Assembly: GCA_013151865.1 (NCBI GenBank)
Contig: JAADHN010000034.1
Span: 1 to 64,000 of the forward strand
Length of the DNA: 64,000 nucleotides
Reading direction: 5' to 3'
DNA from: Kiritimatiellota bacterium
GTDB taxonomy: Bacteria > Verrucomicrobiota > Lentisphaeria > Oligosphaerales > JAADHN01
Shown: piece by piece, positions 8,241 through 18,480 of the stretch
Numbering within the stretch: position 1 is the stretch's first letter
How the letters are laid out: the number at the start of each line of letters is the position of its first letter
Translations under genes and position numbers: made by a program
Notes under the pieces: generated by a model
What the model was told of the DNA's origin: nothing
Database searches by the model: none
Seen by the model: only the letters and a program-made list of their open reading frames with translations

Positions 8241-8888
8241 TCACTCGAACCCGGCCCGGCTGAGACGCTCTGCGGTCACGCCCCCGGACCTGCGGGAAAG
8301 CGCCTGCCGGCGCAGAATGTACTTGCCGACCATGTCCGCCTCGAGGTTCGCCGGGTCGCCGGGACGAAGCTCGTGCAGGCTCGTCGCTTCCCAAGTGTGG
8401 GGGATGATGCGACACTCGAATGCTTCGTCGATCAATCGGGCCACTGTGAGGGAAACGCCCTCCACGGCGATGCTCCCCTTTGGGATCAGCAACTCAGCCA
8501 ATTCCGCCGGGAGTCGAATGCGCAGGACAATGTCGTCGCCCTTTTGCCCCACGTCCAAGACCGGGGCGGCGGCGTCGACGTGTCCGGACACCAAGTGACC
8601 CCCGAGCCGGTCGCCGAGCCTCAAGGCGCGTTCGAGATTCAGGAGCGCCCCTATTGGGCGTGCACCCAGGTTGGTCCGATCCAGGGTCTCCGCCAGCGTG
8701 TGGAATTCGAGCACGCGTCGGGCCGGAAAAACCTGCTCGACCGTGAGGCAGGCCCCGGCGACCGCGATGCTTTCGCCCGGCCGGACGTCCTCGAGCGGCA
8801 GCGCCGTGTCGACCCGCAGTTTGCCGGCCGCACCGGTGCGACGGCGTCCCGTCAGCCGTCCTGTGCCCTCAACGAGTCCCGTAAACAT
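8241..8888 (-). CDS. ribE: Riboflavin synthase, alpha subunit
   Basis: The 215-residue protein has the tandem lumazine-binding repeats of riboflavin synthase, which dismutates two 6,7-dimethyl-8-ribityllumazine molecules to riboflavin. Diagnostic strings are the N terminus MFTGLVEGTG, CLTVE in repeat 1 and LVSGHVD. Length fits the family. The ATG at 8888 is chosen because MFTG is the invariant N terminus, in-frame codons upstream notwithstanding. ribD lies 46 bp upstream on the same strand, so the two form a riboflavin operon. No ribBA or ribH is present in the window. Confidence 0.95.
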   Translation of the reverse strand: MFTGLVEGTGRLTGRRRTGAAGKLRVDTALPLEDVRPGESIAVAGACLTVEQVFPARRVLEFHTLAETLDRTNLGARPIGALLNLERALRLGDRLGGHLVSGHVDAAAPVLDVGQKGDDIVLRIRLPAELAELLIPKGSIAVEGVSLTVARLIDEAFECRIIPHTWEATSLHELRPGDPANLEADMVGKYILRRQALSRRSGGVTAERLSRAGFE

Positions 8889-8934
8889 GCGTATAACCCT
8901 TTCGAACGGCCTCTGCCCGCGGCATGAAACCAAC

Positions 8935-9990
8935 TCAGTTCGGCACGTATCCGCAAACGCGCAGGTCGTCGCCGAGACGCTTCACCGTCACGTCACGCAG
9001 CACCAGGGCGGCGGCCAGCGTGTCGGGGTCCGGGCCGCCCACCACCGGACGACTCCCGCGCCCCCCGAGGATTTTCGGGGCCACATAGAAGACGATTTCG
9101 TTCACCGCCCCCGCGCGCAGGGCCGCGCCGGCCAACTCTCCCCCCCCCTCGAGGAGCAAGGCCGTGACATCCTGCGAGCCCAACGATCCAAGAAAGTCCA
9201 GCCAAGCCGCGGAATGCCGAAGCGTCACGAATTCCGGAGGATTGCCGGGGTCCTGCCAAATCCGATAGTTCCGGGGCAAGGCGCCCCGTCGGGACCAGAC
9301 CAATTTGCGCGGCTGCCGAGGCCAATTCCGCGGGGTCCGCACCGTCAACTCGGGATCGTCCCGGCGAACGGTCTCCGCACCCACCATGATGGCGTCTGCC
9401 CACTGTCGCAGGCGCTGTACATCCCGCCGCGCCTGTTCGCCCGTGATCCACCGGGACGCTCCGGAAGCGGTCGCGATCTTCCCATCGAGCGTCATGGCCA
9501 TCTTCAGGATCACGAACGGCCGACCCGTCACGATCCAGTGAAAAAAAGCTTCGTTCAATCGTTCGCACGCCGCTTGCAGCACTCCGACTCGCACCTCAAT
9601 TCCGTTTCGCCGGAGCAACTCCGCACCTCGGCCGGCGTGTTTCGGATTCGGATCGAGCCCGCCGATCACCACTCGCCGGATGCCGGCAGCCAGGATGGCT
9701 TCGGTGCACGGCGGCGTGCGACCGTGCGTCGAGCAGGGCTCGAGAGTCACGTACAGCGTGGCCCCTCGAGCCAAATCCCCGGCCGCGGCCAGGGCCGCAG
9801 GCTCCGCATGCGGACCGCCCGCCACCCGATGTCGCCCTCGTCCCGCCTCGAGACCGTCCCGGACGACCACTGCGCCGACCATGGGGTTCGGACTCGTCCG
9901 CCCCCAACTCCGGCGCGCCAGCCTTAGGGCAAGGCGCATCCAGCGGGCGTCTTCCGGCGCCCCGGCATTGTCCGCCACCGTCGACTCCAC
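8935..9990 (-). CDS. ribD: Bifunctional pyrimidine deaminase/reductase RibD
   Basis: The 351-residue enzyme carries out two middle steps of riboflavin synthesis: deamination of the diaminopyrimidine, then NADPH reduction of the ribosyl side chain. The N-terminal deaminase half carries the zinc motif HAEPAAL and PCSTHGRTPPC; the reductase half starts near RPFVILKMAMTLDGKIA and contains ASRWITG. Length matches the family. A GTG start at 9990 is chosen; GGAG lies 6 nt upstream. It is followed by ribE. No FMN-riboswitch core was recognised upstream. Confidence 0.95.
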   Translation of the reverse strand: MESTVADNAGAPEDARWMRLALRLARRSWGRTSPNPMVGAVVVRDGLEAGRGRHRVAGGPHAEPAALAAAGDLARGATLYVTLEPCSTHGRTPPCTEAILAAGIRRVVIGGLDPNPKHAGRGAELLRRNGIEVRVGVLQAACERLNEAFFHWIVTGRPFVILKMAMTLDGKIATASGASRWITGEQARRDVQRLRQWADAIMVGAETVRRDDPELTVRTPRNWPRQPRKLVWSRRGALPRNYRIWQDPGNPPEFVTLRHSAAWLDFLGSLGSQDVTALLLEGGGELAGAALRAGAVNEIVFYVAPKILGGRGSRPVVGGPDPDTLAAALVLRDVTVKRLGDDLRVCGYVPN

Positions 9991-10422
9991 ACCCGTCTCC
10001 TTCTGTGGTCCGCGGGCGCCTCACCCAACCGTCGCCCTGTACAAATCATACCATACCGCACAAGTCCGAATAAGCGCGGATTTCGGCCGGGCAAAAACCG
10101 CCGCGACGGCAAACAGGGCCCTCCGGCTTTGCGAAGCGCTTCCCGCACGACTGCTCCGAGTTCGGGGCCGAACGCACCGGGGCGCTCGTTTCGGCGGAGT
10201 TCGCAAACGCAGGACCGAATTCGCGTATCATCAAGGCCGATCCGGATTATATTGGTCGTGGGATCGGGTGAGCCCCTTTATGGCCCGAGGCCATGTGTCC
10301 GGCGCCCGGAACGGACACGACCGCGGTCGGCACACCCGCGGGCGCCCGCCGGCACACGCCCCCCCGGAGGAAATAACGACCGGCGCGGCCCCGCGTTCCC
10401 ACAACCAACAAGGATGCTTTTC
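9991..10422. other. Divergent intergenic region (ribD / secreted protein gene)
   Basis: About 430 bp between two divergent genes. A minus-strand extended -10 element lies near 10045-10053. On the plus strand an AT-rich TATATT near 10244-10249 could be a -10 for the rightward gene, without a convincing -35. No ORF or structured RNA was supported. Confidence 0.4.
10045..10053 (-). promoter_or_regulatory. Extended -10 promoter element for ribD-ribE
   Basis: On the minus strand the sequence reads TGG TATGAT, an extended -10 (TGn plus five of six consensus bases), about 55 bp upstream of the ribD GTG. No good -35 is visible, as expected for extended -10 promoters. This would give a leader of roughly 45-50 nt. 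Confidence 0.45.
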
Positions 10423-11691
10423 ATGACAAACCTGCACGCACTGCCCATCTCCCTCGGCCTGATCGCTCTGGCCGGCGTCACGGCGCCCGCAAGAACGGAC
10501 CGCTTCGTTCAGGATCGGTTCGCCATCGGGTTCTGGGTGGACCCACCCATGGATGCCCGCGCGGATTTTCGGTACCGTCGAATCGCCGAAGCCAATTTCA
10601 CGCTGGTCCTGGGTGGATTCGGCGCCCGGACGTCGGCTCAGATCCGGCGGCAAATCGAGCTGTGCGAGAAATACGGACTCAAGGCCCTTGTCAGCTCGCA
10701 CGGCGATCCGGCCGACCTGCCGGACAGCCCCGCCTGCTGGGGGTACCGACTCAAAGACGAACCCAATGCCGCAGTCTTCAAAGCTCTGCGCGAACGCGCG
10801 GATGCCATACGCGCACAGCGCCCCGGCAAACTGGTTTTCGTCAATTTGTACCCCAATTACGCCAACAAACGACAGCTCGGCGTCGACACCTACGAGGAAC
10901 ATGTGGGCCTGTTCTGCAAGACGTACGATCCGGCGGTCCTGTGCATGGACCACTATCCCGGGTTCCATCCGGGTCGCGGAGACGGTCGGGCCGCGTATTG
11001 CGCCAACTTGGCAGTCCTGCGCAAGTTCGCGCTGCAACGGGGCATTCCGTTTTGGAATTTCTTCAATATCATGCCGTACGGCGGACACACCGATCCCACC
11101 GAGGGTCAAGTGCGATGGCAAATCTTCACGTCGCTGGCTTACGGCGCAAAAGGGGTCCTGTATTTCTGTTATTACACGCCCCGGGGCAGAGAATTCCCCA
11201 AAGGCGGCGCCATTATCGGCCGGGACGACCGCCCGACCCGCCACTACGATCAGGCCCGCCGGATCAACGCGGAACTCAAGGCCATGGGGCCGACGCTGAT
11301 GCGCCTGACCAGCACCGACGTGCGCCACGTGGCCCCGGGAACTGAGCCGGAAAAAACCCTTGCCGGGACCCCGATTCGCCGGCTGGAACGCGCCCGGCAC
11401 GATCCCGAGTTCGACCTGCTCATCGGATGTTTCCGACACGCGGACGGGCGGCGGGCCGTCCTGCTCGCCAATTATCGGTTCGCCTATACCGCCTGGCCCA
11501 CGGTCGAATTCGACGCCGCCCCCGGCGACGTGGTCGAAGTGGACAAGAAAACGGGCCGGGAAGTGCCGGTGATCGACAGCAGTCCCGACATGCCCGGTTT
11601 CCAGATTTCTCTGGACGCCGGCGACGGCCGTCTGTTCCTGCTCCCGGCCACGACTGCGAGTCCCGGTCCGGCCGGAAAAGCGGCGCCGTGA
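10423..11691 (+). CDS. Secreted glycoside-hydrolase-like TIM-barrel protein, unassigned family
   Basis: The 422-residue protein begins with a probable signal peptide (residues 1-22, ending AGVTAPA). The body looks like a TIM barrel: GFWVDPP, repeated beta/alpha segments, the acidic stretch YRLKDEPN (a candidate acid/base position like the NEP of clan GH-A), LCMDHYP, and WQIFTSLAYGAKGVLYFCYYTPRG, which is common in bacterial proteins near GH42-like or beta-agarase-like enzymes. A C-terminal beta domain ends in VVEVDKKTGREVPV and LPA. ATG at 10423 has AAGGA about 9 nt upstream; another ATG lies three codons before. Function is inferred only as secreted carbohydrate-active. Confidence 0.65.
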   Translation: MTNLHALPISLGLIALAGVTAPARTDRFVQDRFAIGFWVDPPMDARADFRYRRIAEANFTLVLGGFGARTSAQIRRQIELCEKYGLKALVSSHGDPADLPDSPACWGYRLKDEPNAAVFKALRERADAIRAQRPGKLVFVNLYPNYANKRQLGVDTYEEHVGLFCKTYDPAVLCMDHYPGFHPGRGDGRAAYCANLAVLRKFALQRGIPFWNFFNIMPYGGHTDPTEGQVRWQIFTSLAYGAKGVLYFCYYTPRGREFPKGGAIIGRDDRPTRHYDQARRINAELKAMGPTLMRLTSTDVRHVAPGTEPEKTLAGTPIRRLERARHDPEFDLLIGCFRHADGRRAVLLANYRFAYTAWPTVEFDAAPGDVVEVDKKTGREVPVIDSSPDMPGFQISLDAGDGRLFLLPATTASPGPAGKAAP

Positions 11692-11763: not shown

Positions 11764-12414
11764 TCAGCGTTTTCGTCCCTTGACAATCCGGCGGCTTACG
11801 TCCTGTATCTTCTTGTTCCCTAAGAGCTTGATGATCTTGGGATCCTTCATGAGCTGCAGCAGGTTGCCGGACTGTACGGCCCGCTGAATCTCCGGGTCCC
11901 GGAGCACAGCTTGAATGTCCGGGTCCTCCTGCAACGCAGTGATGCTGCGCATGATGTCCGGGTCCCCGGTGATGGCCTGCATCAGGCCCTGGATGTCCAT
12001 GCCGGCCGCCTTGACGTGGAGGGACGGTGCAGTGGGTCGGACTGCGGGGCGATTCGAGCGGAGGCCCCGGCCGGCGCCCCGCGTGCGGGTTGCGCCGCTA
12101 TCGACCGCGCGCCGCCGGCCAGTCAGGTTCGGCGGCGAAAAAACGATGCTTTCCACTGCCGCGGTGGGAACGGTCATGGTCCCGAGCTGCTCCGTCTCGA
12201 CGCTGATCAAGCCGTTTTTCAGGCTCGAGATTCGACCGACCAGGCGGGTGCCGTCCCGCAACGTCACCACGGCCTTCCGCGCCGGTTTTCGAGCCCGGTC
12301 GACCGGCGCGTCGCCGGTCGCCGAACCGGCCCGGACCGGCGTGCCGGCGCGGGACACGCACGGCAGCAACAGGAGAACGGCCAGGATCGAGCCAGCGAGA
12401 CGCGGTCGTTTCAT
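11764..12414 (-). CDS. Small secreted protein with beta-rich domain and STI1/DP-like tail
   Basis: The 216-residue protein has a signal peptide (residues 1-23, ending VSRAG), then a 45-residue beta-type segment (TLRDGTRLVGRISSLKNGLISVE) resembling Sm-like or surface-binding modules. After a basic linker comes a helical C terminus, residues about 140-210, with spaced Asp-Pro pairs: GDPDIMRSI, EDPDIQAVL, RDPEIQRAV, KDPKIIKLL. This is the pattern of STI1/DP domains of Hop/Sti1-type co-chaperones. GGAGG lies 6 nt before the ATG. No partner is evident; the adjacent gene is divergent. The function is unknown. Confidence 0.65.
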   Translation of the reverse strand: MKRPRLAGSILAVLLLLPCVSRAGTPVRAGSATGDAPVDRARKPARKAVVTLRDGTRLVGRISSLKNGLISVETEQLGTMTVPTAAVESIVFSPPNLTGRRRAVDSGATRTRGAGRGLRSNRPAVRPTAPSLHVKAAGMDIQGLMQAITGDPDIMRSITALQEDPDIQAVLRDPEIQRAVQSGNLLQLMKDPKIIKLLGNKKIQDVSRRIVKGRKR

Positions 12415-12761
12415 TTCGGTCCTCCGGGTTTTGCCGAGGCCGGCACGCGCCGGGGCGGCCTGTCATGCGCCGGGAGCGGAAGTCTTGTTTGTTCAACCGT
12501 ATACGCTCTCCACCGGGCGCGCAACTCGGCACGCGCCGGTAGGGCCGTTTTTCGGGAACGACATCGGCATCTACCGGAGTACTCGGAAGGTTTTGTCGGC
12601 CCTCGGGCAGTGACTTGCGTCGGGAGTGTTGCCGGGATATAGACCAGTTGCTCGAGTTGGGCATGAGCGACGGAACCTCCCAGCGATTCCGGGCCCGGGA
12701 GTGTTCCGGACTCTCCGGCCCGACCGTTTGATCCGGCAGGCTTGCCCAGGAGGCGCGAGGC
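12415..12761. other. Divergent intergenic region
   Basis: About 350 bp between the small STI1-tailed gene and the DUF6259-like gene, transcribed away from each other. Short repeats of GGCACGCGCCGG occur near 12450 and 12531. No promoter of convincing quality and no coding sequence were identified. Confidence 0.35.
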
Positions 12762-14942
12762 GTGAAAACATCTTTCCTGACAGTGCTGCTGTTGTTCGTT
12801 GGACGAACTTGCCTTGGGATGCCGTCCGCACCGGGGCTTGAGGTGCGGGTTTTTCTCGGCGATCCGGCGAAACAGGACTTTCGCACTCTTGTCGGCCGAC
12901 CGCTTGAAACGAAACCGACGCCGACAGGGCTGTCGGTGCGTTACGAATTGCGCGATGAATCCGGTGGACTGTGGCGGATCTCCTTCGAGGCGGAGATGAG
13001 TCGCGACGGCGACAGCGTCTCCTGGCGCTATCGCACGGCCAACCAGCAGGCCGGCGCGACCGTGTGCCGGGTCGTTTTTCCCATTGTGAGGGGTGTGCTC
13101 ATCGGGGGGAAATGGGCTGACAACCGAATTCTTTGGCCGGGGAAGTACGTGGGCGCCCGAATCGATGGACTGAAATCGGCGGAAGAATTCGCGCGGCAAT
13201 GTCGCGACGCCTGCAAAGGCGTGTCGCATCTGCACGGCATGTATCAGGGCGATTTGTGTCTGCCCTTCTTCGTTCAGACAGGGAAAGACGCGGCTTTTTC
13301 CGTCATGGTTTGCGACCCGACGCATGAAGTCATTGCACTCGATGGCTACCGGCGCAAGGACGGCATGGAATATCGCGTAACCACGACCCCGCGGGTCCCC
13401 TTTGGGGCCGCGTGGACGTTTGGAGAGGTGAAAGTCATTACACTCGAACAGGCGGACTGGCATGTCGTTGCCGACCGCTACCGAGACTGGCTCGTCCAGC
13501 AGGACTTCCGACCGCCGGTTCGCCATGGGGACATCGCCGCACTGATGTACGGGCGATGGGACGGTTTGAAGACCGGCGAGGCGATCCGGTGGGCCAAGGC
13601 GCTGGATATCCGGGACGTTTGCTTGTGGGTCGTTCTCTACGGCAAAGGCGACCGCTATTACCCGTGCTATTTCCCGCCGCCGGAACTGGGGGTTTCGGGG
13701 TTGAAGGCGAAGTTGGATGTATTGCGAAAAGCGGGTCTCTCGCCGTATTTCTATACGAATCACTACCTGCTCAGCCCGCTCCAGACCGAGGCCGACGCCC
13801 AGGAATGGACAAGCAAGTATCCGGAAAAGTATCCGCGATGGCTCGCAAGGAATGATCATGGATATGCGGAAACGGCCAAACGGTTCAGGGCGCGACACCC
13901 CGGTTTCGCCGGCAAATGGCTTGAAACGCCGGGCGGCATTCTGCCGTTGCGAGTTCGACGTGTCGATTATCACTGGGGAGAATACCCGATGTATTTTTGG
14001 CATCGCCGTCCTTTTTGGGCGGCGTGCGTCGCGACCCCGCAATGGCAAAAACTCTTCGAGGACGTCGCTGCATTGCACGCGCGACTGGGCGCGGGGGGCA
14101 TTTACGTCGACCAAATCGCGGCCATACGTCCCGAATTGTGCTCCGCCGCCGGTCATGGTCACGACACCGACAGTTTTGGTTTCTGGAACCGGGCCTCCCT
14201 GCGATTACTGCGAAGAATACGACGCGAGGGCGAGAAGAATCAGCCCGGTTTCTTCATCGAAGCCGAAGGGGCCACGGATCTGTACGCCAAGTATATCGAC
14301 CGTTACCTCTGCAACTTCAAGATGCCAGACCCGAAAAGCACGTCGTGGCCGAGATTGTTCCGATACACGGTGCCGTGGGCGCGCTTCGACGTCGGCAACT
14401 GCGGATATCAAGACGCCGACAAGATGAAACGACATGTCGAAGAAACGCTGTTGCTGGGCTGCATTTTTCGGGCGTCCGGCGGGACGGCAACCGGCCCGGA
14501 GCCCCGCAACGACCCGCGTCTCAGGAGCGACGCGGTCCAGCTCTTGAAAGCGGCCATACAGACTCGACGACGACTCGGCCCCTTCATCGATAAAGGACGT
14601 TTCATGGATGACGTCGGGTTGAAAACCACGGGCTGCTCGAAGGCTGCCTGGTTCGACGGTGAAAACGGTGTTCTCATCGCGGTGAAAGCGTCAGGCGGCG
14701 ATGCAACCGTCGGGCTGACAACCGACCGAGAGGACCTGAATGTCCGTTCCGCGGCGGCGATCGATTGGCAGACCGGCCGCAAGCGCCGGGCACGTACGAG
14801 CATGACAAACTCGGTTGTCTCAGTGACAGGCCTCGAGGCCGGCTTCAACTTGGTCGTTATCCCGGCGAAATCGACCGAGGTCACACCGGCGCGACAACCG
14901 TCCCGTGTCCGGATGAGGCCCCGACGGTTTCCCGGAGACTGA
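12762..14942 (+). CDS. Secreted DUF6259-like glycoside hydrolase
   Basis: This 726-residue protein has a signal peptide (about residues 1-19), an N-terminal beta-supersandwich like GH-D/GH31-clan accessory domains, then a TIM barrel from about residue 250 (AALMYGRWDGLKTGEAIRWA). Acidic residues on strand ends include GGIYVDQIA and FFIEAEGATD, candidates for nucleophile and acid/base as in DUF6259 and related alpha-galactosidase-clan proteins. A C-terminal beta domain follows. The start is GTG at 12762, with AGGAGG 8 nt upstream. The substrate cannot be assigned; the family assignment is from overall resemblance. Confidence 0.65.
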   Translation: MKTSFLTVLLLFVGRTCLGMPSAPGLEVRVFLGDPAKQDFRTLVGRPLETKPTPTGLSVRYELRDESGGLWRISFEAEMSRDGDSVSWRYRTANQQAGATVCRVVFPIVRGVLIGGKWADNRILWPGKYVGARIDGLKSAEEFARQCRDACKGVSHLHGMYQGDLCLPFFVQTGKDAAFSVMVCDPTHEVIALDGYRRKDGMEYRVTTTPRVPFGAAWTFGEVKVITLEQADWHVVADRYRDWLVQQDFRPPVRHGDIAALMYGRWDGLKTGEAIRWAKALDIRDVCLWVVLYGKGDRYYPCYFPPPELGVSGLKAKLDVLRKAGLSPYFYTNHYLLSPLQTEADAQEWTSKYPEKYPRWLARNDHGYAETAKRFRARHPGFAGKWLETPGGILPLRVRRVDYHWGEYPMYFWHRRPFWAACVATPQWQKLFEDVAALHARLGAGGIYVDQIAAIRPELCSAAGHGHDTDSFGFWNRASLRLLRRIRREGEKNQPGFFIEAEGATDLYAKYIDRYLCNFKMPDPKSTSWPRLFRYTVPWARFDVGNCGYQDADKMKRHVEETLLLGCIFRASGGTATGPEPRNDPRLRSDAVQLLKAAIQTRRRLGPFIDKGRFMDDVGLKTTGCSKAAWFDGENGVLIAVKASGGDATVGLTTDREDLNVRSAAAIDWQTGRKRRARTSMTNSVVSVTGLEAGFNLVVIPAKSTEVTPARQPSRVRMRPRRFPGD

Positions 14943-17489: not shown

Positions 17490-17649
17490 GCTAAACTGCA
17501 AATGATGCATGGATCGATGGCAACCTTTTGGGGGGCGTCCCGGAATCCTTCAAACGGTCTGGCCAACGCGGGCCCGCAGTTCGCGCTCGAGGGCAACCGC
17601 GAAAAACGGGCGTTGCCGCCCGACGCACCCGACCGGAAATCCCGAAATC

Positions 17650-18480
17650 ATGAGAATTCTCCTCGATGAAAAAGCGCTGACTGTCCCCGAAGGCGCTTCC
17701 CTCTTTTCGGTTCGGGACCGATTCAAGCCGGGGGCGGACATCGTCGTGCTGAATGGGGCCATCGTCAAGGATGACCGGACACTGTCTCCCGGCGATTCCG
17801 TTTGCCTGATCCGGCGTGGGGAGACGCCGTCCCGGTCCGAACTGGAGGCCCTCCTCGTGGCCCGTCACACCCCGGGGGTCCACGCCGTGGCGAAACGCGC
17901 CGCCGTGGGCATTGCGGGCCTGGGGGGGTTGGGCTCGACCGTGGCCGTGGCCCTGGTCCGAACCGGTATCGGGAAACTCGTGCTGGCCGATTTCGACGTG
18001 GTCGAACCCAGCAACCTCAACCGGCAGCAGTATACCGTAGAACAGATCGGACTGTACAAAACCGACGCTCTCCGGGAAGTCCTGGGGAAGATCAACCCGT
18101 ATGTCGAAATCGAGACGCACTGTGTGCGTCTGGACGACCGAAACGTGCCGGAGGTGTTCGGACGGGTCGACGTGATGGTCGAGGCGTTCGATGCCGTGGC
18201 GGCCAAGGCGATGCTGGTGCGTTCGTTCCGGAAGGCATGCCCGGGCGTCCCGCTGGTGACCGCCAGCGGTCTTGCCGGGTATGGTCCATCCAACCGGATT
18301 CGGACACGGCGAGTCCTGCCGAACCTGTACTTGGTCGGCGACGAGGAGAGTGAAGCACGCCCCGGTGTGGGGCTGATGGCGCCGCGGGTGGGCATTGCCG
18401 CCTCGCACCAGGCCAATGCCGTCCTGCGCCTGCTGCTGGGCGAACCGGTCGGGGACGACGAACCTCTCAAGCCGGCATAA
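17650..18480 (+). CDS. thiF: ThiF-family adenylyltransferase with N-terminal ThiS-like domain
   Basis: The 276-residue protein starts with a ubiquitin-fold ThiS-like domain (residues 1-60: MRILLDEKALTVPEGASL, VVLNGAIV), followed by an E1-like Rossmann domain. The nucleotide loop is GIAGLGGLGSTVA and the adenylation arginine lies in SNLNRQQY. It lacks the two CxxC zinc pairs and the catalytic cysteine of E. coli ThiF/MoeB, fitting the ThiF family-2 type found in Clostridia and others. The attached ThiS-like domain has no C-terminal GG tail, so it is likely structural or regulatory. No thiS, thiG or thiH is nearby. ATG at 17650 gives the family N terminus. Confidence 0.8.
   Translation: MRILLDEKALTVPEGASLFSVRDRFKPGADIVVLNGAIVKDDRTLSPGDSVCLIRRGETPSRSELEALLVARHTPGVHAVAKRAAVGIAGLGGLGSTVAVALVRTGIGKLVLADFDVVEPSNLNRQQYTVEQIGLYKTDALREVLGKINPYVEIETHCVRLDDRNVPEVFGRVDVMVEAFDAVAAKAMLVRSFRKACPGVPLVTASGLAGYGPSNRIRTRRVLPNLYLVGDEESEARPGVGLMAPRVGIAASHQANAVLRLLLGEPVGDDEPLKPA

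Follow-up and report, generated by a model that had tools for sequence, protein, structure and literature searches.

The locus examined here raises the question of what a helical tail resembling the STI1/DP domains of eukaryotic co-chaperones would do in a small bacterial protein, P0001, that appears to be exported. The sequence-only reading of this DNA had proposed such a protein and had seen a paradox in it, as no Hsp70/Hsp90 partner is expected outside the cytoplasm. In this bacterium, a relative of the Lentisphaerae, the helical tail is shared with further proteins of the cell envelope, a hint that a folding helper has gone unrecognised outside the cytoplasm. The open reading frame was recovered on the minus strand with exactly the boundaries given before, encoding 216 amino acids from an ATG preceded by GGAGG, and the gene is real, since a search with the P0001 sequence alone matched relatives in 10/98 genomes of the order/class. 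One of these matches, L009 (G043), was discarded as spurious, its frame being antisense to a long ORF.

12421..12425, minus strand: Shine-Dalgarno-like GGAGG, 5' of the ATG, seen in the sequence
11764..12414, minus strand: coding sequence of P0001, exported two-domain protein of 216 aa, from the ORF and from relatives by sequence
12346..12414, minus strand: signal peptide, residues 1-23, likely cut between SRA and G (hydrophobic stretch; cleavage site by eye)

The hydrophobic, signal-like N terminus, in agreement with the signal peptide proposed before, is common to 11/11 two-domain proteins examined (the ten rows of profile A1 and L083). P0001 has no Cys past the signal region and consequently no thiol chemistry of its own.

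How widespread is this protein? When A1, a profile of ten two-domain members, was run over 197 genomes of the class, 39/197 matched at E up to 1e-3, and the complete two-domain protein was present in nine of the 197 (10 places, two of them in G063); all ten were already A1 rows, no new two-domain member was found in these genomes, and the remaining matches were partial, mostly barrel only. Such a patchy distribution (9/197) argues against an essential chaperone. Moreover, a search of the wider contig collection with alignment A4 recovered four of these loci (Lentisphaerae RIFOXYA12_64_32 and SI037_bin151; Verrucomicrobia OFTM198 and OFTM167) and, in addition, a locus outside the phylum, where a two-domain protein (L083:8441-8959) lies on a contig of a Nitrospirae MAG, binning unchecked. 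The P0001 sequence alone retrieved no relatives from the wider contig collection, nor from viral contigs and plasmids. As for the alignments, the CvpA-like L011 is outside A1 and inside A2, the DP-only profile, and L014 is outside A6 and inside A1 and A2.

Our computations show that P0001 is built of two domains. AlphaFold2, run with ten family sequences, placed both confidently with a disordered linker between them; the overall pTM of only 0.36 is expected because the linker is loose. The small beta domain noticed in the sequence is thus borne out, at residues 46-92 of the model.

12136..12279, minus strand: Sm/Hfq-fold five-strand barrel, residues 46-93 (AlphaFold2, Foldseek, VIA)
12007..12126, minus strand: disordered Arg-rich linker, residues 97-136 (pLDDT under 50)
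11767..12003, minus strand: DP-capped helical domain, residues 138-216, seven short helices (AlphaFold2; homology to CvpA tails)

The barrel strands lie at residues 47-52, 57-66, 69-74, 78-83 and 87-92 (pLDDT about 91-95), and the tail helices at 141-150, 152-162, 165-171, 174-182, 185-190, 192-198 and 201-213; the DP domain has a pLDDT of about 90 in the full protein and, modelled alone, of 86.7 with a pTM of 0.62. Residues 96-137, which span the linker, hold 10 K/R vs 1 D/E. The barrel resembles Hfq (Foldseek E 3.3e-4; VIA Z 7.4) and the Hfq-like 'nose' of Kustd1711 (VIA Z 8.1, rmsd 1.9, 54 aligned), and it has the five strands of the Sm fold; Z values of 7-8 are in the tool's 'common' range, but the Hfq chains form a coherent set. 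Both Hfq and the nose share the five-strand Sm/Hfq fold with P0001 and neither has a DP tail; Kustd1711 also works outside the cytoplasm, with the fold inserted in a cytochrome c, and Hfq is an RNA-binding ring, unlike P0001. No Hfq family was found in P0001 by Pfam or NCBIfam scans. An RNA chaperone reading of the barrel is not favoured, given the missing family match and the export of the protein, and its exported location makes RNA binding unlikely.

The barrel could nonetheless be the working part, an extracytoplasmic Hfq-like domain engaged in ligand or envelope sensing, as DUF481 proteins and Kustd1711 might suggest, with the tail as a tether. In L024 the barrel precedes a DUF481 domain (Pfam E 2.1e-26; L024 was the one locus scanned with Pfam), similar ORFs occur among the other partial matches, and the Kustd1711 nose is described as an Hfq-like fold within an anammox-organelle protein (PMC11791136). 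We hold this unlikely, as the tail also occurs on CvpA without the barrel and hence has a role of its own. The same barrel stands ahead of DUF481-like outer-membrane ORFs in L025-L028, L030-L041, L043 and L044.

What, then, is the tail? Four Asp-Pro motifs had been read in it, and all are there; their supposed even spacing is not, the real intervals being 13, 9 and 18 residues.

11959..11964, minus strand: Asp-Pro 1, DPDI, residue 151 (sequence)
11920..11925, minus strand: Asp-Pro 2, DPDI, residue 164 (sequence)
11893..11898, minus strand: Asp-Pro 3, DPEI, residue 173 (sequence)
11839..11844, minus strand: Asp-Pro 4, DPKI, residue 191 (sequence)

The third is the most conserved cap, with P174 in at least 90% of alignment A6. 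Four DP in the 79-residue tail arise in 4.5e-5 of shuffles of the tail composition and in 0.0057 of whole-protein shuffles. The tails of the other ten two-domain proteins carry 0-2 DP and 0-2 NP, so the four DPs of P0001 are an extreme and homologues do not keep the repeated four-DP pattern. Short helices capped by DP or NP, by which STI1/DP domains are judged, are present in P0001 (seven helices, with DP at 151, 164, 173 and 191).

Relatives of the tail were also found on membrane proteins. A2, which includes one CvpA-like row (L011), matched 29/387 sampled genomes of the phylum; 21 of the matched loci were inspected, none of them was two-domain, and the DP-bearing frames were, by eye, membrane proteins of about 265-430 aa. 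Colicin_V (PF02674) was detected in five of the six CvpA-like proteins scanned (L049, L050, L063, L011 and L055; above the cut-off in L050, L011 and L055), and the sixth, L068, had no Pfam match. A7, an alignment of twelve CvpA tails that is nearly gapless over 91 residues, excludes the two-domain proteins and picks P0001 out of the P0001 genome at E 1.3e-9; the A7 members were originally found with A2, which holds that CvpA-like row. Furthermore, the A7 profile matched 44/387 genomes of the phylum (E up to 1e-4) and 14/197 of the class (E up to 0.01), and hhalign aligned A7 with A2 at a probability of 99.0. On this profile evidence, the DP domain of P0001 and the C-terminal tails that CvpA-like proteins carry across the phylum are homologous; the CvpA-like proteins are anchored by four membrane segments where P0001 has an exported barrel. 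Such proteins with a 91-residue DP tail are found at L049-L073 and L104-L133, and some CvpA-like tails hold two DP-type segments in tandem (L055:961-1917 in G152; L139 in G097). No curated Pfam or NCBIfam model above its cut-off was found for the tail, and literature searches on CvpA with Akkermansia or envelope, and on PAC-HIT, yielded nothing on a DP-tail domain. In the genome of P0001 itself there is no other convincing DP domain (next match E 0.27), and Pfam detects no CvpA there at E up to 1e-3.

Three predictions bear out the placement of the module outside the cytoplasm, which the sequence-only reading had assumed: the signal peptides in all eleven two-domain proteins, a DsbD fusion and the topology of the CvpA tails. 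The fusion, shown in one genome (L085:2848-5196, G005:C221), is a single 783-aa ORF with barrel and DP module before DsbD_N, DsbD_TM and a thioredoxin domain, an arrangement that places the module in the periplasm. For the CvpA-like proteins, a crude hydropathy and positive-inside count over 31 proteins, four of them three-segment, put the tail outside in 23/27 four-segment proteins (K/R 0.21 vs 0.09 per residue), with L106, L109, L122 and L132 against it; a smaller run of 20 proteins at another threshold favoured an outside tail in 13/17 four-segment ones. Moreover, the membrane part of the CvpA type matches the model of MarP, at E 5.4e-6 in L011 and weakly in L049 and L050. The C-terminal domain of MarP is reported to be periplasmic (PMC6628586, PMC4992679) and is thus outside in both, being a protease where CvpA-DP proteins have the DP domain. 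The architecture, the tail homology and the location, taken by themselves, are in our judgement very probably correct.

The resemblance of the tail to STI1/DP domains calls for more caution. STI1-HOP_DP (PF17830) is the top Pfam family of P0001 (E 1.8e-4), but its 21.8 bits stay below the curated cut-off of 29.1. The family matches 7/10 A1 members and 12/12 CvpA tails (the tails at E up to 1; best 1.8e-6, 28.2 bits), and it never exceeds its curated cut-off in the class (0/197 genomes). It also gives matches in B. subtilis and, in other proteins of the class, scores two sulfatase-like proteins at 18.7-23.2 bits (18.7-23.7 bits off the family once a short Met-rich ORF is added; all named by eye). 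A single-protein Pfam score was therefore rejected as proof of STI1 membership, the sulfatase-like proteins and the Met-rich ORF scoring alike. In the PDB, the first three matches of the A1 profile were Sgt2 (E 0.00099), Sti1 DP2 (0.015) and human STIP1 (0.016), the first two of A2 were Sgt2 (0.0026) and Sti1 (0.0039), and A7 placed a designed KDPV bundle first (0.0023) with Sti1 behind (0.078). The design, a helix bundle with KDPV loops (PDB 9u78; E 0.06 vs the A2 profile), mimics DP domains in profile searches and serves well as a negative control where STI1 membership is claimed.

Against five eukaryotic STI1 fragments, hhalign scored A2 at 40.3 (probability 95.1) and A7 at 41.0 (probability 95.0). 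Controls for the A2 score gave 13.1 as the maximum over 100 column shuffles, 12.7 and 14.2 with the profiles reversed, and 21.6 with the KDPV design. A harder control kept the DP columns fixed and shuffled only within hydrophobic and within polar columns, giving means of 33.0 for A2 (5/150 at or above the real score) and 32.1 for A7 (0/150). These means are near the real scores, so the resemblance consists mostly of helix caps and an amphipathic pattern, with little specific sequence. What had been called a hallmark of STI1/DP domains thus stands as a reproducible profile-level resemblance, with top places in Pfam and PDB, while membership fails (21.8 < 29.1 bits) and specificity finds no clear support. 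Homology of the DP tail to STI1 is possible, unproven by these comparisons.

Common descent of the eukaryotic STI1/DP domain and the bacterial DP domain from one ancestor would explain the matches of PF17830 to members and CvpA tails and the gap between the hhalign probabilities and the column shuffles. Conversely, the cut-off was never reached in the class, alignment registers vary between single members, and the pattern-preserving control recovers much of the score; we regard descent from one ancestor as possible but rather doubtful, and it is compatible with the adaptor or holdase reading set out below. The opposite case, a bundle for structure or oligomerisation that converged with STI1, in which DP serves as a strong helix N-cap and the bundle is stable without a ligand, would fit the E values of the KDPV design against A2 and, as best match, A7, and also the shuffles that preserve DP columns and pattern and account for most of the STI1 score. 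However, the conservation of the domain over deep divergence and its reuse on three unrelated envelope architectures suggest a specific function, and DP domains are enriched in Met (38/764 residues vs 5/500 in the barrels, summed), which makes a mere bundle unlikely in our view.

Would such a domain need a partner that the periplasm lacks? Hop/Sti1 docks to Hsp70/Hsp90 via its TPR domains. No TPR was matched in P0001, nor among the families listed for the ten A1 members, and a co-chaperone of Hsp70/Hsp90 was rejected as a reading of P0001, with no TPR and an exported protein. The paradox raised earlier rests on a confusion: what the STI1/DP domain of Hop/Sti1 and Sgt2 takes hold of is a client helix, and domains that hold client helices in a groove make a missing periplasmic Hsp70/90 no paradox. 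Indeed, the STI1/DP domain of Sgt2 is reported to grip client helices (PMC8010706), and Hop DP2 to hold a helix of the glucocorticoid receptor, with Dsk2 likewise helix-holding (PMC13083955); together with ubiquilin, these helical hands are described as holding amphipathic or transmembrane helices (PMC8010706, PMC13083955, PMC13083928), and Met-rich grooves as marking helix-binding STI1 domains (PMC13083928). Bacterial STI1 domains receive no mention in the available excerpts of PMC8010706, PMC13083955 and PMC13083928.

By comparison, the known STI1/DP domains (Sti1/Hop DP2, 2LLW and 7KW7; Sgt2-C, 9LLV; Dsk2/ubiquilin STI1, 9CKX; Tic40) likewise have short helices with DP or NP caps at similar intervals, and share with the P0001 tail the top profile matches in Pfam and PDB and the Met enrichment. 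P0001 differs in being below the Pfam cut-off and extracytoplasmic, with TPR, UBL and UBA not found; its tail has seven predicted helices vs five or six. By analogy, the DP domain probably works like an STI1/DP domain, without passing as a member.

We tentatively prefer to read P0001 as an exported adaptor or holdase, in which the barrel anchors or assembles and the DP bundle grips helices, and would rate the whole statement somewhat short of an even chance. The signal peptide would carry P0001 over the inner membrane, the Sm/Hfq-fold barrel would anchor or assemble it, and the flexible linker would present the DP-capped bundle of short helices, which would hold proteins of the envelope, or proteins just translocated, by their exposed amphipathic or transmembrane helices in STI1/DP fashion, such holding needing no ATPase partner. 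In CvpA-DP proteins CvpA would anchor the DP domain, and in the fusion DsbD would bring it to disulfide reduction. We infer the groove, the helix binding and the chaperone-like use of the DP domain by analogy with STI1/DP domains. The confident model of both domains, the tail homology, the extracytoplasmic placement, the Met enrichment, the STI1 resemblance and a yajC-secDF neighbour at one locus count in favour of an adaptor or holdase; counting against it are fold searches in which no solved STI1 structure came up (no STI1 chain being among those compared), the amphipathicity of the tail, significant in only three of the seven helices when taken per helix, the single yajC-secDF locus, the single genome with the DsbD fusion, the uninformative surroundings of the P0001 gene and the patchy distribution.

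Genomic context was searched for conserved neighbours or export partners. In the window (the whole stretch of 64,000 nucleotides analysed) the P0001 gene is solitary, with both flanking genes on the opposite strand, and it has no informative neighbour.

10129-11691, strand opposite to P0001: flanking gene without a Pfam match (Pfam scan)
12762-14942, strand opposite to P0001: flanking gene encoding a DUF6259 protein (Pfam scan)

A conserved operon was sought at the loci of ten relatives, with Pfam on selected neighbours, and L084 gave the only informative link: at L084:2862-6555 (G063:C281), one locus of ten, yajC and secDF follow the two-domain gene directly downstream on the same strand. Beyond L084 and the DsbD fusion, no recognised neighbour was common to the remaining loci among the ten compared. 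L084 is reminiscent of Tic40, a membrane-anchored protein of the chloroplast inner envelope with STI1-type domains, reported to act at the protein translocon (PMC5296341). Tic40 differs in working with Hsp93 in the plant stroma, and its structure 2lnm is only a weak PDB match of A7 (E 0.97). At another locus, the two-domain gene is followed, after about 300 bases, by one for a TerB plus DnaJ-domain protein (L081:10767-11690).

DP modules attached to specific membrane proteins, and in one case next to them, would also suit a docking module. Its DP domain would be specific for one particular helix in a dedicated membrane partner (e.g., in complexes of SecDF/YajC, DsbD or CvpA), general chaperoning would be absent, and the barrel would act as effector. 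Foldseek gave 13 matches for the DP-only model, none of them significant (best E 4.6), and among 16 chains aligned by VIA the best was ZNHIT3 in complex with NUFIP1 (Z 5.2, rmsd 3.0-3.1, 63 aligned), a weak match within the tool's 'common' range. The ZNHIT3 domain grips one helix of one partner, NUFIP1. STI1 chains are absent from the 13 Foldseek matches and the VIA rows listed, so the fold searches do not count against an STI1 fold. The best structural match, weak as it is, points toward docking, but its Z stays in that common range, no partner is conserved and the neighbours vary across the ten loci; we consider docking a possibility of low probability.

If the tail grips helices like STI1, as the adaptor or holdase reading has it, a whole bacterial phylum would have an unrecognised helper for envelope folding or sorting. 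CvpA is described as an envelope protein of unclear role on which enteric pathogens depend for resistance to bile salts (PMC6705877), and in DP-tail bacteria it would gain a testable client-binding domain. The reading would also bear on the origin of the eukaryotic STI1 domain. In its boldest form, which we think quite improbable, the client-holding STI1/DP domain would predate eukaryotes and have an extracytoplasmic bacterial branch, and P0001 barrels would form a purely conjectural ring from which several DP grooves hang on their linkers, the whole acting in the periplasm as a jellyfish-like holdase at the exit of the Sec translocon (yajC-secDF) and with DsbD, with CvpA-DP proteins as its membrane-bound counterpart.

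Elsewhere in the window, an ORF at 17509-18480 resembles a ThiS-ThiF fusion, and two ORFs at 8241-9990 on the minus strand resemble the riboflavin genes ribE and ribD, both by eye.
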